NCBI GenBank assembly: GCA_905215095.1
Contig: CAJMOL010000023.1
Span: 1-12,441, forward strand
DNA from: an uncultured bacterium
GTDB taxonomy: Bacteria; Actinomycetota; Coriobacteriia; Coriobacteriales; Coriobacteriaceae
DNA length: 12,441 nucleotides
Reading direction: 5' to 3'
Within the stretch, counting starts at the first letter, position 1. Every line of letters starts with the position of its first letter. A program made the position numbers and the translations under genes. Of the stretch, positions 1 to 4,803 are shown piece by piece. Under the pieces are notes generated by a model. The model was given only the letters and a program-made list of their open reading frames with translations. It ran no database searches and was not told the origin of the DNA.

Positions 1-1953
1 GCGTCTTCCTCGGTTGGCGCGAGCAGCGTTAAGCTCACCCAGGGGCAGAAGATTGAGTTTGCCTTTACGGGCGGTAGCGCGTCCCCTGTCGTTAAGGACC
101 AGCTTGCTGCGAATGTGACCGTCATTGGTCGCGATGCCCAGGGCAAGACTCAGACTTGGGTCGATAACGCGCAGTATGTGGTGACGTCCGGCTCGAGCGC
201 GCTTGACCTTACGAAGGTCGCGCTCGAGGCGAATGATATTGACGCCGTTGCTGCGGGCTCCTTCATTCTGAGCCTTAAGTACAACGGCGTTGAGCTGGGT
301 ACGCCGCTCGATTATTCGACCTATTGGCAGCTGTTCATCAACGGCAAGTCGAGCGACTACACGGCAGACAATGTCACCATCCACGCCGGCGATACCGTCA
401 CGTGGTTCTACGGTGGCTGGGGCGACCAGTTGCCGTCCGATTCTGTTCATGCTTCCGTTCAGGTACTTGGTAAGGATAAGGACGGCAAGCAGCAGGTTTG
501 GGCTTCGACGGGCCAGATGAGCCTCAAGGCAGGCTCCACTGCCAAGGATCTCCTTGAGCAGACCGGCCTTACTCTCGATGCTGGCGAATCGTCTTGGGGC
601 TGGTTCCTCAACGGCATTACTTCGCCGTTCGATGGTAAGTCCTATGGCTGGGATGCTGCGACCAATAGCTATTGGCGCTTCTACGTAAATGGCAAGTTCG
701 CCGACGCCGGCGCCGGTGCCTATGAGCTCCAAGAGGGTGACGCCGTCACCTTTATGTATGGTGCTGACGCCGATGCCCTTCCTGGCCAGGTTCTTGGTTC
801 TGTCGATGTTATCGGTCCCGATGTCAACGACAACAATACTCGCTGGGGCTCGGCAAGCAACGTTTCTCTGCCCGAAGGCTCTACGGCTCAGGATTTCATT
901 GAGACGGTTCTGAAGGCAAAGCGCGTTGATTACAAGGCCTCCCAGAGTGGTGCATACTGGTTCCTCAATTCCGTTACTTCGCCGTTCGATCACAAGCCGT
1001 ATGTCTGGGATGCTACGACCAATAAATATTGGCACCTGTATATCAATGGAGAGCCCTCCTTACTCTGCGCCAATCAGATTACGCTCAAGAGTGGCGATAA
1101 GGTTACGCTTGCCTATACGACCGATGACTCGCCCATGCCCGATCCCGACAAGATTGTCGTGGACCCGAGTGCGACGACTCCTGATTGGGATGCCGAGTGG
1201 GCCGGCTACGGCAACAGTGGCAACGGTTCGACCGTAACGGATGCCAAGACGCCTGCGCAGGCTGCCGGTCTTAAGTGGGCCTTCGATTGGAAGGCCGAGT
1301 CTGGTCAGCAGTATGCCAACTGCAGCGAACCTGTCATCGCTAACGGCTTTGTGTACATCGCGACCGAGAACGAGCTCATTAAGATCGATTCGTCCACGGG
1401 CAAAAAGGTTGCCTCTGCGCCGCTTGCCTCCAAGGTGAGCTATACCTCTCGTCCGATCTATACCAATGGCCTTATCATCGTTCCGCTCAACGGCGGTGCG
1501 GTCCAGGCGATTACTGCAGACAAGCTGATCTGCAAGTGGCTGACGCCCGGTTTGACGGACTTGACGCAGAGCTCCTGCACCGTCGTTTCGGACGGCGAGT
1601 ACGTCTATGTAGGCTCGGTCGATATTTCGTATGACGAGAATTACAACGCGACCTACGGCAACGGCTCCTTTGTGCGCATTAAGATTGCCACGGGCGAAGT
1701 TTCTTGGCAGAACATCGACCCTGCCGAGGGCTATTACTGGACTGGTGCGGCTTTGACGGATAAGTATGCCATCGTTCCTACGAGCGCAGGTACGCTTAAG
1801 TGCATTGATAAGGCAACGGGTGATGTCGTTTCGACCATGAAGCTCGGCGCCCTTGCGAACGCTGACTGCGTCGCCGATCCGTCCAATGGCTCGACCTTCT
1901 ATCAGATGACGCACGACGGAAAGCTCCATGTGATTTCGCTTTGGGCGTGCTGA
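1..1953 (+). CDS. Large surface protein, 5'-partial fragment: DUF4430 repeats plus PQQ-like propeller (frameshifted)
   Basis: The reading frame is open from base 1, so the true start lies upstream; the GTG at 115 is internal, because the 38 codons before it complete an earlier repeat. The 650 visible residues begin with the end of one DUF4430 (transcobalamin-C-like) repeat. Three full repeats of about 110-118 residues follow, at roughly bases 115-445, 448-792 and 793-1148. Each has a YW.(L/F)(F/Y).NG motif and a GD.V...Y motif near its end, and two share a W.LN..TSPFD motif. From about base 1275 the protein becomes a PQQ/WD-like beta-propeller, with blades such as GFVYIATENELIKIDSSTGK and ATGEVSWQ. 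The frame stops at 1951-1953 inside a blade, and the propeller resumes in another frame from 1941, so this is the N-terminal part of one gene ending at 3074. DUF4430 proteins are usually extracellular. The ligand is unknown; adhesion or ligand binding is inference. Confidence 0.8.
   Translation, partial: ASSSVGASSVKLTQGQKIEFAFTGGSASPVVKDQLAANVTVIGRDAQGKTQTWVDNAQYVVTSGSSALDLTKVALEANDIDAVAAGSFILSLKYNGVELGTPLDYSTYWQLFINGKSSDYTADNVTIHAGDTVTWFYGGWGDQLPSDSVHASVQVLGKDKDGKQQVWASTGQMSLKAGSTAKDLLEQTGLTLDAGESSWGWFLNGITSPFDGKSYGWDAATNSYWRFYVNGKFADAGAGAYELQEGDAVTFMYGADADALPGQVLGSVDVIGPDVNDNNTRWGSASNVSLPEGSTAQDFIETVLKAKRVDYKASQSGAYWFLNSVTSPFDHKPYVWDATTNKYWHLYINGEPSLLCANQITLKSGDKVTLAYTTDDSPMPDPDKIVVDPSATTPDWDAEWAGYGNSGNGSTVTDAKTPAQAAGLKWAFDWKAESGQQYANCSEPVIANGFVYIATENELIKIDSSTGKKVASAPLASKVSYTSRPIYTNGLIIVPLNGGAVQAITADKLICKWLTPGLTDLTQSSCTVVSDGEYVYVGSVDISYDENYNATYGNGSFVRIKIATGEVSWQNIDPAEGYYWTGAALTDKYAIVPTSAGTLKCIDKATGDVVSTMKLGALANADCVADPSNGSTFYQMTHDGKLHVISLWAC
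1936..1953 (+). other. Frameshift site in the large surface-protein gene
   Basis: The reading leaves the first frame after KLHVISL (codon 1939-1941) and must continue one base back, at 1941, to read GVLSEQKTVDLG and the rest of the propeller. One base is therefore missing, or two are extra, around the CTTTGGG at 1939-1945. A canonical X XXY YYZ slippery heptamer is not present in the incoming frame, so programmed -1 frameshifting is not supported. A deletion in the T-run, real or from sequencing, is the simplest reading. Confidence 0.75.
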
Positions 1954-3074
1954 GTGAACAGAAGACGGTTGATCTGGGCCTTACGAATAATCTGAGCGCC
2001 CCTGCGGTGTCTGGTGACAATCTGATTGTCGGCGGACAGACGGCTACTGGCTCTGCTCTGGTTCTCTATAACCTGAAGACGGGTAAGACCACGATGGTCG
2101 CTGCTGCCGACGGCAAGGCGCTGCCGGCTGGCCTCAACGGTATTGCTGCTACTCCGCTGGTGAGTGTTCAGGGCGGCAAGACCTATGTGTACTTCACCGT
2201 TAACAGCGCGGATAGCAAGGATTACGTCAACTACTCTGCTGGTGGTGGCGTGTATCGCTATACGCTCGGCGATGCAGAGGCGACGCAGATTTATGATGCG
2301 GCTGGCCATTACCAGTACTGTGACTCTCCGGTCATTGCCGATGCTTCTGGCAATCTCTACTACATTAATGATTCGGGCACGCTGTTTAAACTTGGAGCTG
2401 TCGAGTCTTGGACGGTTGCCTTTAACTCCAACGGCGGGTCTGCTTGCGACACTAAGTTTGTTGCTACGGCCGATGGCAAGCTGGTCAAGCCGGCCGATCC
2501 GACGCGCGATGGCTACACTTTCGGCGGTTGGTATACCGATGAGGCTTGCACGCAGGCGTATGACTTTAGCACGCCGGTGACGGCCGATCTGACGCTGTAT
2601 GCCAAGTGGACCAAGAATGCCGTTAACCCTGGCGGTAATGGCGGCGCTGGTTCGAATGGCGGCGGCGGTTCTGGTACCGGTACTGGTTCCGGCACTAGCG
2701 CTGGCACTGGCACGGGTTCCGGCTCCGGCTCGAAGGGCGGCGCTGTCGCCCCGGGTCATAAGCCGACGACCAAGACGACGGTGTCGACCAAGACCGAGAC
2801 CAAGGACAACAAGTCCGACAAGAAGGACTCCGATAAGTCCGATAAGAAGGACGAGAAGAAGTCTGACAAGAAGTCTGACAAGAAGGACAGCAAGTCCGAC
2901 AAGAAGTCCGATTCCAAGTCCGATACGGGTGCTGCTTCCACGACCACTGCTAAGAAGTCCTCTAGTGCTTCCGAGCAGGAGACTGGCACCAACCCGCTCG
3001 CCATTGTTGGCGTTGCCGCCGGCGTCATCGGTCTCGCCATCGTCGGCGTGTTCGTGTTCACCAAACGTCGGTAG
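1941..3074 (+). CDS. Large surface protein, C-terminal fragment: propeller end, Listeria-Bacteroides repeat, anchor
   Basis: This is the continuation of the preceding gene in another frame. Its nominal start (TTG at 1941) lacks a ribosome binding site and falls inside a propeller blade, so it is not an independent gene. Residues 1-155 finish the PQQ-like propeller (blades such as NLKTGK and ASGNLYYINDSGTLFKL). Residues 156-224 are a Listeria-Bacteroides (InlB B-type, Flg_new) repeat, with FNSNGG, GYTFGGWYTD and LTLYAKW. Residues 230-262 are a Gly/Ser/Thr linker. Residues about 270-330 are Lys/Ser/Asp repeats, as in wall-spanning stalks. The C-terminus has EQETG, then a hydrophobic segment (about 352-373) and FTKRR. 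That is the layout of a sortase signal, but LPxTG is not intact (only TG matches), so it may be a plain membrane anchor. The stop at 3072-3074 abuts the next start, suggesting one operon. Confidence 0.8.
   Translation: MGVLSEQKTVDLGLTNNLSAPAVSGDNLIVGGQTATGSALVLYNLKTGKTTMVAAADGKALPAGLNGIAATPLVSVQGGKTYVYFTVNSADSKDYVNYSAGGGVYRYTLGDAEATQIYDAAGHYQYCDSPVIADASGNLYYINDSGTLFKLGAVESWTVAFNSNGGSACDTKFVATADGKLVKPADPTRDGYTFGGWYTDEACTQAYDFSTPVTADLTLYAKWTKNAVNPGGNGGAGSNGGGGSGTGTGSGTSAGTGTGSGSGSKGGAVAPGHKPTTKTTVSTKTETKDNKSDKKDSDKSDKKDEKKSDKKSDKKDSKSDKKSDSKSDTGAASTTTAKKSSSASEQETGTNPLAIVGVAAGVIGLAIVGVFVFTKRR
2808..2931 (+). repeat. Low-complexity AAG/TCC/GAC coding repeat (KSDKK stalk)
   Basis: This is in-frame low-complexity DNA encoding Lys-Ser-Asp repeats. 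It includes a perfect tandem 12-mer, AAGTCTGACAAG, at 2859-2870 and 2871-2882. Such tracts change length easily by slippage in frame, so stalk length may vary between strains. Confidence 0.7.
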
Positions 3075-3986
3075 GTGAGGGCTGTGTCCAATAAATCCAA
3101 GGACGCTGACCCCAAGCAACCAGATTCCTCGTTCATTCAGTTCGACGATTCAAAGCAACAGGGCGCCGCTTCGGCGGCGTCCGCCCCTCGACGGAAGGCG
3201 CTTCTTGGCGTTCTGACTGCCGCGTGCGTTGCGCTGATTGTCATATCGCTGGGCTTCGTCCATCCTTCCGAGAGCGGCGCCTGGTCCATTGACTGGATCG
3301 TTCAGGCCGTGACGGGGGAGAGCGTCGTCGCCAAGGACACCAAGGGGTTTGGCTCGACTACGACTTCGGGCGAGGCCAGTTCCAAGGATTCCAAATCTTC
3401 GAATGATGCAAAAGACGAGCCCAAGGGTTCGAACGACGCCAAGAACGATTCCGAGTCTTCAAACAAGGAATCGGACAAAAACTCGGATAGCAAGAAGTCC
3501 GAGGACCGGGGCGGCAAGAAGTCTGGCGATAAATCCGCTGCCCAAAATACGGGAGCCGGTGATACTTCCAATGCGTCTGGCGGTGCTTCTTCGGGCGGTG
3601 GCCAGTCGTCTGATGGAGCCTCATCCTCTAATGGTGGAAACGCCTCCTCGGGCAGCCAAAGCGGCTCACAGGAGTCCAACTACGTTACGGTGACGGTTTC
3701 GGTCACATCGAGCGCTGTGGGCAATCCCGTGTCCTCTGGCGGCACCTTTACCTTTAACGAAGGCGCCACCGTTTACGATGCCCTGTGCGCGCTGGGCCTT
3801 TCTGTCAACGCACACGGCTCATCGTACGGCACGTATGTTTCTGCGATTGGTGGTTTGGCCGAGAAACAGTACGGCGGCACGAGCGGCTGGATGTACTCCG
3901 TCAACGGCACAACGCCCATGACGGCCTGCAGTAACTACGTTCTCTCCAATGGCGACAACGTCGTTTGGTATTACGTAACGGGCTAA
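3075..3986 (+). CDS. Membrane-anchored protein with one extracellular DUF4430 domain
   Basis: This 303-residue protein has a charged cytoplasmic N-terminus of about 40 residues and a single transmembrane helix at about 43-62 (ALLGVLTAACVALIVISLGF) preceded by RRK. A Ser/Lys/Asp- then Gly/Ser-rich linker of about 100 residues follows. The C-terminal domain of about 100 residues ends in SGWMYSVNGTTP, a cysteine-containing loop (TACSNY) and GDNVVWYYVTG, the signature of DUF4430. It should be a type II membrane protein with the domain outside. GTG 3075 directly follows the previous stop. GTG 3084 is an alternative start, since AGGTGAGG at 3073-3080 could serve as its ribosome binding site. It shares domain type and linker style with its upstream neighbour, so the two may act together at the cell surface (inference). 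DUF4430 is related to the C-terminal domain of transcobalamin, but cobalamin binding cannot be claimed. Confidence 0.85.
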   Translation: MRAVSNKSKDADPKQPDSSFIQFDDSKQQGAASAASAPRRKALLGVLTAACVALIVISLGFVHPSESGAWSIDWIVQAVTGESVVAKDTKGFGSTTTSGEASSKDSKSSNDAKDEPKGSNDAKNDSESSNKESDKNSDSKKSEDRGGKKSGDKSAAQNTGAGDTSNASGGASSGGGQSSDGASSSNGGNASSGSQSGSQESNYVTVTVSVTSSAVGNPVSSGGTFTFNEGATVYDALCALGLSVNAHGSSYGTYVSAIGGLAEKQYGGTSGWMYSVNGTTPMTACSNYVLSNGDNVVWYYVTG

Positions 3987-4006: not shown

Positions 4007-4046
4007 AAACGGGCGGTTCGGACCAACATCCGAGCCGCCCGTTTTT
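4007..4046 (+). terminator. Rho-independent terminator after the DUF4430 cluster
   Basis: The left arm (4007-4022) starts AAACGGGCGG and pairs with the right arm (4029-4044) ending CCGCCCGTTT. This gives 16 pairs with one G-U wobble, a 6-nt loop and a T-run at 4042-4046. It starts 20 bases after the stop at 3986. Confidence 0.9.
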
Positions 4047-4055
4047 AATACGGAT

Positions 4056-4284
4056 GGGATGGGGTTCCCAATCGAGGCTCAACCGGAAAATGCATCCCAC
4101 TCTGAAGGCGAATTCCGAGACACGGTTTCCGCATCAGCATCCATTGGGAAAGCACATCCCGTTCTGCTGACTGATTCCGGGACGCAGCTTCCGCTAGGAC
4201 GGCGTTGCGGAAGCTGCATCCCATTCTGAGGCTGCAATCTGGGATGCACTTTCCGGAACGGCGCTCTTGGGGAAACTGCGTCCC
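4056..4284. repeat. Array of eight alternating inverted motifs (BIME/REP-like), 62-bp dimer period
   Basis: The core motif is GGAARNTGCRTCCC (14 bp). Plus-oriented copies are at 4085-4098, 4147-4160, 4209-4222 and 4271-4284, spaced exactly 62 bp. Minus-oriented copies are at 4056-4069, 4117-4130, 4179-4192 and 4241-4254, spaced 61, 62 and 62 bp. Similarity extends about 6 bp past the CCC end (ATTCTG or GGAATC types). Orientation alternates at every step, and steps are 29-32 bp, close to three DNA helical turns. Neighbouring copies can form hairpins: 4179-4194 and 4207-4222 match at 15 of 16 positions, and 4209-4223 and 4240-4254 match at 13 of 15. The array lies between convergent genes and between two terminators, which is typical of REP/BIME elements. 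No protein gene is supported here; open frames on both strands only reflect the repeats. Role unknown. Confidence 0.85.
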
Positions 4285-4334: not shown

Positions 4335-4370
4335 ACAAAAAGCCGGCTGGAACGTGAATTCCAACCGGCT
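4335..4370 (-). terminator. Rho-independent terminator of the gtrA-like gene
   Basis: AGCCGGCTGGAA (4341-4352) pairs with TTCCAACCGGCT (4359-4370), 12 pairs with one wobble and a 6-nt loop. The A-run at 4336-4342 is a T-tract on the minus strand, so it terminates the leftward gene ending at 4396. Confidence 0.9.
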
Positions 4371-4395: not shown

Positions 4396-4803
4396 CTACG
4401 ACTGTGCGCCTTCGAGGAAGAAGCGGCGGCTAAAGTAGTTGTACCAGGTGACCAGGAACGTGGCGATGGCCTTCATGGCCTGGTAGCCGATGCTCAAAAA
4501 CGTGACGCCCACAAACATGTACAGGTCGTTGAGGCCCAGGCCGATCACCGACAGGATGGTGAAGATCGTGAACTCGCGCTTGCGGCTCATGCCTTCGCGG
4601 TGGTCGAACACGTACTTCATGCTGAGCCAGTAGTTGACCACGACGGACGTGATAAACGAGATCGTGGTGCTCATCAAAAAGTCGAGATGGAACAGCTCGA
4701 CGAGCGCAATGAGCATGCCCCAGTCGATGCCAAAGGAGATAAGTCCCACGACAGCGAACTTGAGGAACTGCTTGGTATGAGGTTGTGCCAGTGCCTTGCG
4801 CAC
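4396..4803 (-). CDS. GtrA family small membrane protein (first of two)
   Basis: This 135-residue protein has four predicted transmembrane helices and GtrA-family motifs: QFLKFAVVGLISFGIDW at the N-terminus, NYWLSMKYVF in the middle and YNYFSRRFFL at the C-terminus. GtrA proteins are thought to take part in moving lipid-linked sugars across the membrane for polysaccharide or teichoic-acid-like decoration. Substrate specificity cannot be read from sequence. The start is GTG at 4803, with GGAT about nine bases upstream as a weak ribosome binding site. It lies downstream of a paralogue (5023-5418), but a 219-bp gap with a large hairpin and an AT-rich inverted repeat suggests its own transcription or attenuation. 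No glycosyltransferase gene is adjacent, which is unlike many GtrA loci. Confidence 0.88.
   Translation of the reverse strand: MRKALAQPHTKQFLKFAVVGLISFGIDWGMLIALVELFHLDFLMSTTISFITSVVVNYWLSMKYVFDHREGMSRKREFTIFTILSVIGLGLNDLYMFVGVTFLSIGYQAMKAIATFLVTWYNYFSRRFFLEGAQS

Follow-up and report, generated by a model that had tools for sequence, protein, structure and literature searches.

A clade-specific family of phased, alternating repeat arrays in Collinsella, BIME-like in layout and possibly made of DNA-binding sites

What is a row of eight short motifs, alternating in direction and evenly spaced, that lies between two convergent genes of an uncultured member of the Coriobacteriaceae? The question arises from a 12,441-nucleotide stretch of contig CAJMOL010000023.1 (assembly GCA_905215095.1), hereafter the window, whose closest relatives belong to Collinsella, a common human gut genus; to our knowledge the nucleoid organisation of Collinsella has been little studied. 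From the letters of the window, a first-pass annotation proposed a BIME/REP-like element, a landing site for gyrase or a nucleoid protein, or a multi-hairpin RNA. BIMEs consist of REPs set at regular intervals and alternating in orientation (PMC2817692). We compared the window array with its counterparts in related strains and across the genus, and weighed these readings against each other.

The array spans positions 4056–4284 of the window and comprises eight motifs of 14 bp in alternating direction, placed by reading and by a refined-motif scan and joined by a weight-matrix chain. Forward motifs, on the plus strand, start exactly 62 bp apart, at 4085 (GGAAAATGCATCCC, 4085–4098), 4147 (GGAAAGCACATCCC, 4147–4160), 4209 (GGAAGCTGCATCCC, 4209–4222) and 4271 (GGAAACTGCGTCCC, 4271–4284); inverted motifs, on the minus strand, start at 4056 (the degenerate GGGAACCCCATCCC, 4056–4069), 4117 (GGAAACCGTGTCTC, 4117–4130), 4179 (GGAAGCTGCGTCCC, 4179–4192) and 4241 (GGAAAGTGCATCCC, 4241–4254), at intervals of 61, 62 and 62 bp. 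The successive steps are 29, 32, 30, 32, 30, 32 and 30 bp, and the spacing is as first reported: four plus-strand copies at 62 bp and four inverted copies at 61–62 bp. The earlier consensus, GGAARNTGCRTCCC, is matched exactly by five of the eight motifs; the poorer copies are those at 4147, with two mismatches, and at 4056 and 4117, with three each. Exact matches to GGAARNTGCRTCCC occurred in none of 200 dinucleotide shuffles. At up to three mismatches over the whole window, the consensus alone is not significant (17 found against 12 expected, with 27 of 200 shuffles as high), unlike the register, which is. A weight matrix, refined on the window array and related arrays and hence not independent of the window, gives eight matches that form a single chain of eight, against a longest chain of one in 1000 dinucleotide-shuffled windows, and the alternation in steps of 29–32 bp is confirmed by that comparison. 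The 46-bp dyads (motif, 18 bp, inverted motif) at 4085–4130, 4147–4192 and 4209–4254 are the three matches in the window to a general dyad pattern, each with one mismatch, and no match arose in 200 shuffles.

The proposed location between the terminators of convergent genes also proved correct. To the left lies the gene of a DUF4430 protein (3075–3986, plus strand) and to the right the convergent gene of a GtrA-like membrane protein (4396–4803, minus strand). Behind each, our own simple hairpin finder places a terminator-like hairpin with a T-run: at 4007–4046 on the plus strand behind the DUF4430 gene (arms 4007–4022 and 4029–4044), and at 4337–4370 on the minus strand behind the GtrA-like gene. 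These hairpins face the array from both sides, at 14 and 57 bp, and because of this double flank the window array is probably little transcribed. Further left, positions 1–3074 hold two overlapping open frames, which may be a single gene split by a frameshift; frame 1–1953 has a DUF4430 match and a weak beta-propeller match, and frame 1941–3074 has a List_Bact_rpt domain and a repeat stretch rich in lysine, serine and aspartate.

The array is one member of a dispersed family. In the nearest genome (G001), which has 75% of the window's sampled 31-mers in common, the array region matches twelve other array-holding places. A search with the GtrA-like protein returned 24 loci, 19 of them at 96–99% identity, all Collinsella and many named C. 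aerofaciens; the five remoter loci (67–69%; three Collinsella, Enorma and Limicola) had no array in the fetched DNA. We then scanned 43 Collinsella genomes for the dyad pattern GGAAA-N-YRYR-N-CCC, 18 bp and its inverse, allowing at most two mismatches. It is present in 23 of them, 23–56 times in each of 22 and once in G014, where the sole match consists of just two weak motifs, and at this threshold it is absent from the other 20; the reversed-pattern control gave no match in any of the 43. At no more than one mismatch, 22 of 396 genomes of the class match, namely 21 Collinsella and G367, a genome of another family, which we rejected as a genuine occurrence: its two matches lie on a contig 92–96% identical to Collinsella G011, a contaminant. 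The search shows an array family restricted to one part of the genus Collinsella. Viral contigs yielded no exact match to the pattern and phage records no blastn match to the window array; a plasmid carrier was considered and set aside, the only 'plasmid' match being a 900-kb Collinsella aerofaciens record whose genes look like those of a chromosome. There are about ten array places per chromosome (10 in G003). With a strict pattern in G001, all nine matches fell inside arrays, and lone motifs outside arrays were not evident. No listed dyads fall at about 0.20–1.05 Mb of G002 contig C1 or 0.15–1.10 Mb of G003 contig C1; searching for the origin by DnaA_N in G002 and G003 gave no match, and hence nothing on replichores. 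The genome search for the motif thus upholds a repeat family, with many alternating, regularly spaced copies between genes in 22 of 43 Collinsella genomes. The first-pass annotation knew of no described family of this type in Coriobacteriia; neither the literature searched, with subscription journals mostly outside reach, nor Rfam, which gave no match in the window at E up to 1, holds one, and the family was apparently undescribed before.

The family motif has the 14-bp consensus GGAAA-N-YRYR-W-CCC, and its layout is rigid. In 339 of 362 distinct neighbour pairs from 198 loci the order is motif, 18 bp, inverted motif, 16 bp, with a 15-bp linker in 21; these step counts pool related loci, redundancy having been removed for the pairing statistics only. 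The forward-to-inverted step is 32 bp in 191 of 193 distinct pairs and 31 bp in two, and the inverted-to-forward step is 30 bp in 148 of 169 and 29 bp in the other 21. Lifting the neighbour filter added just four pairs within 60 bp, at odd distances, and the 76 distinct arrays with four or more motifs, 476 steps in all, contain only five register positions that lack a motif. By contrast, the stretch between the last motif and the start codon varies at a patatin-like locus, with six lengths, 87–121 bp, in 20 loci. Across the 104 motifs of 52 non-redundant dyads, positions 1–4 and 12–14 are 97–100% fixed, position 5 is A in 91% and the core is YRYR in 89; the motifs were chosen by the matrix, so this constancy is partly selection, yet few register positions are missed. 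The ends of the 18-bp spacer are biased too, and mirror each other. A seven-genome alignment of another array locus has variable columns in 5 of 90 core, 6 of 237 spacer and 1 of 120 outer positions; we gave up the proposal of faster evolution in the core than in the spacers, as clusters had been picked by spacer similarity and the changes in the alignment are too few.

A forward motif comes first in 16 of 17 even-numbered arrays of G002, G003 and the window, a partly orthologous set, and in 6 of 7 in G001, the exceptions being the window array with its orthologues L044, L046 and L053, and L004; the three two-motif elements of the same scan are all forward-inverted. A 46-bp dyad with 18 bp at its centre therefore seems to be the usual building block. 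Most motifs hold to the consensus singly, hardly depending on their neighbour, and their spacing hardly changes, although the fixed spacing may in part be shared descent with few indels. An inert tandem satellite in neutral decay would account for a copy number that differs between strains, but here the spacers differ and yet the outer positions of the motif and the spacing are conserved, and the register positions that have decayed are as few as the five counted above; we consider such a satellite very improbable.

A stronger competitor is a hairpin element of REPIN or BIME type, acting in RNA or single-stranded DNA, in which dyad stem-loops at the 3' ends of genes would stabilise or terminate transcripts. 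Folding of the array is much stronger than that of shuffled sequence on both strands (z −6.1 and −7.2), which speaks for hairpins, but any row of inverted motifs would fold strongly. The first-pass annotation had singled out 4179–4194 and 4207–4222 as a compensating pair. The pairing does exist in the window, and this best pair beats slid controls by far, as any structure taken from the sequence would; an alignment with three other strains lends the compensation no support beyond shuffles: 82.1% of cells are paired across the four, and 309 of 500 shuffles are as high. Within an initial set of 13 arrays, neighbouring motifs differed by slightly fewer mismatches than they did when their order was shuffled (2.85 versus 3.09, P 0.02). 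Core pairing in the non-redundant sets is indistinguishable from that of shuffled arms, at 0.683 against 0.676 (n=52, P 0.38) and 0.771 against 0.766 (n=59, P 0.38). This independent variation of the arms, in the non-redundant set and at the window locus alike, counts against the hairpin reading. Covariation as a general rule is accordingly not borne out, and the suggested covarying multi-hairpin RNA is not supported at the window locus or in the non-redundant set overall.

Two other loci are exceptions that keep paired arms, and they favour hairpins. At the L013 locus, two pairs across the 16-bp linker are fully paired in six of seven full arrays, one via a double swap, which amounts to compensatory change at that pair, and a third pair is fully paired in three of the seven. 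At the L099 site, the arms of one dyad pair perfectly in 12 of 19 loci, with only G-U departures in five and a mismatch in two; this is conservation, not compensatory change, which tells against the hairpin element. The paired-arm dyad at this site (L217–L235) lies 11–22 bp after a stop codon, in arrays of 2 to 8 motifs, and may serve as the 3' end of that gene. Identical arms are slightly commoner than expected, at 4 of 52 in one set and 3 of 59 in the other, where about 0.8 would be expected in each. Paired arms at these two loci and the excess of identical arms mean, therefore, that hairpins matter, or that arms copy each other, at some loci.

Genomic context points both ways. By heuristic gene calls, arrays lie between genes, convergent or tandem, and some adjoin tRNA or tmRNA genes. 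On one annotated record with an incomplete gene table, two of five arrays are convergent, two tandem and one disturbed by an IS, and the absence of any divergent case agrees with a role at gene 3' ends; of the 23 gaps measuring 100 bp or more in a 49-kb stretch of that record, four are divergent by eye, against 0 of 5 arrays, which only suggests that arrays avoid divergent gaps. L097 and L106, one locus in two genomes, were divergent according to the ORF caller and were reassigned, a tmRNA gene making them tandem. Some arrays (L089, L096, L098, L100, L212 and the L099 site) start 11–22 bp past a stop codon, and no preceding terminator was found for them, which favours hairpins. However, a terminator-like hairpin within 160 bp already faces the array in 13 of 38 arrays (it faces away in 10 of 38), and a fixed 16-bp linker is needless for RNA hairpins. 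On balance we regard the hairpin element as rather unlikely as the general explanation; motif-by-motif constraint with fixed spacing fits binding sites in duplex DNA better than RNA structure.

Strains differ widely in array size and presence. The patatin-like locus, with a tmRNA gene upstream in the two genomes scanned, carries arrays of 3–11 motifs in 20 of 22 array-clade genomes; at eight loci of array-free genomes, where the place is located less surely, no array was found. By matrix, the L099 site has 2, 3, 4, 6 or 8 motifs according to strain. At a third locus, the seven-genome alignment, which leaves out G011, G032 and G033 because they could not be placed, has one genome without 61 bp, two without about three periods, and a single spacer base lost in G034. 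Arrays thus grow and shrink, often by whole periods of 61–62 bp. The window site carries arrays of 6 to 10 motifs in five of 20 strains, one 7-motif array stopping at an insertion, and a deletion-like scar in one; since it is empty in the other 14, the array is dispensable at that site. G001, outside the local tree, is empty there as well. On the local tree, array presence needs at least five changes, four by well-supported branches, and the array label does not cluster (500 of 500 shuffles as low), with recombination between strains as a caveat to this result; L044 (10 motifs) and L045 (empty) are neighbours on it.

Such a pattern might be expected of a selfish family of miniature elements, spread by a putative transposase and kept by copying, not by host function. 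Dispersal over the chromosome, sites occupied in some related strains and vacant in others with a scattered distribution on the local tree, and identical or swapped arm pairs that resemble arm-to-arm copying would all agree with this. Other sites, though, are common to the clade, the patatin-like locus foremost, which speaks for descent; empty sites gave, by eye, neither a convincing target duplication nor a clean insertion, and empty window sites retain a piece like the end of the last motif, again by eye, that looks like a deletion scar. We judge the selfish family unlikely. Mobile-element sequences occur within or at the edges of arrays, at L055:2782–3760, L197:5109–6160 and L236:127–1464; an IS3 transposase is annotated in L197, and those of L055 and L236 are transposase-like by eye. 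REPs are likewise reported as IS targets (PMC1525189).

How far, then, is the family a BIME? The BIMEs of E. coli and Xanthomonas are likewise short alternating motifs with regular spacing, in clusters of variable size between genes (PMC2817692). Regular alternating motifs at many intergenic places of the chromosome are found here too, gene calls being heuristic, whereas the palindromic REP units of a BIME are not: by eye there is no GTAG/CGTC tag and the internal palindrome is weak. Unlike BIMEs, the Collinsella arrays show no palindromic REP headed by GTAG or GTGG, a motif that is itself no clear hairpin, no RAYT gene found flanked by the motif and a strict 62-bp register, and they amount to 23–56 pattern dyads per genome in another phylum. 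REPINs of Pseudomonas fluorescens SBW25 are inverted pairs with a spacer, foldable as one hairpin, and some form ordered clusters (PMC3116915), but they are mostly solitary and near RAYTs, as opposed to mostly arrays, a fixed spacer length and mostly independent arms in Collinsella. GTAG- and CGTC-tagged palindromic repeats are likewise dispersed and intergenic, as dimers and groups (PMC3733652), but no such tag is seen in the Collinsella motif; the main text of that paper contains neither Collinsella nor Coriobact.

A strict-sense REP family spread by a RAYT, a transposase whose genes are said to lie invariably between inverted REPs (PMC2817692), would share the alternating, spaced repeats of BIMEs. 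The Y1_Tnp family includes both IS200-like and RAYT-like genes. Of the 43 Collinsella genomes, 37 have such genes, among them all 22 array-bearing ones and 15 of the 21 others; the two are not independent in this sample, a point slightly in favour of a RAYT-borne family, though shared descent may explain it. We fetched a subset of these genes with up to 1.5 kb on each side, 31 loci in all (L064, L065 and L108–L136). Only one, at which an IS200-like gene neighbours a tRNA-Arg gene, adjoins an array; each of three others, all belonging to genomes free of arrays, has a single weak match standing alone, and the motif is absent from the fetched flanks of both G001 Y1_Tnp genes. The RAYT-like Y1 transposase gene of G001 (L064:1243–2400) is flanked by a repeat of its own, which starts with GTAG and holds GGGACGGGG by eye; it is perhaps a separate GTAG-type REP family in Collinsella, and its difference from the array motif argues against a RAYT-borne origin of the arrays. 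We find the strict-sense REP family improbable. The suggested look for an associated RAYT thus comes to one array-flanked Y1_Tnp gene in 31 fetched loci, IS200-like at that, and of the BIME/REP-like reading the layout stands, whereas the REP proper, with no tag seen in the motif and no RAYT partner in the loci fetched, is not supported.

We favour, at a probability of roughly 45%, a BIME-like, clade-specific family of phased putative DNA-binding sites that is not a REP. Operator arrays and iterons of DNA-binding proteins have phased, individually constrained sites with conserved spacing, and the Collinsella sites are phased and constrained in the same manner, but differ in occupying about ten places per chromosome and in alternating direction. 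The array would offer duplex DNA sites to a putative sequence-specific protein that binds cooperatively; its outer GGAAA and CCC would be read directly and the flexible YR-YR core indirectly. With about three helical turns per step, all sites would come to lie on one face, where neighbouring protein molecules could touch head to head and tail to tail. The resulting filament or bend between genes might organise or insulate the chromosome or set supercoiling. In E. coli, BIMEs act with gyrase or IHF in chromosome organisation and supercoiling, DNA polymerase I being a further protein that BIMEs bind, and gyrase or a nucleoid protein may likewise bind the Collinsella arrays. Array growth and shrinkage would probably proceed by recombination between same-direction motifs. 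Several observations count against the binding-site reading: the paired and identical arms at some loci, the possible share of descent in the fixed spacing, the spacer base lost in G034, and the window site that is empty in 14 of 20 strains. In addition, a usual DNA-binding protein is expected to have some lone motifs, and none is evident in G001.

More speculatively, and with appreciably less confidence, the arrays may be landing strips for a putative nucleoid or topology protein confined to the Collinsella aerofaciens group, that is, intergenic elements organising or insulating the chromosome. In this proposal, an alternating-subunit filament, one subunit per 31 bp on one helix face, would read a YRYR shape code between two fixed contacts, and a BIME kind of element would have evolved without REPs or RAYTs.

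A clade-specific repeat laid out like BIMEs yet lacking REP units would demonstrate that arrays of this kind can originate and be kept up independently. The rigid register makes a direct test possible, in the form of a protein that requires 62 bp, and array size, because it differs from strain to strain, could serve for typing.
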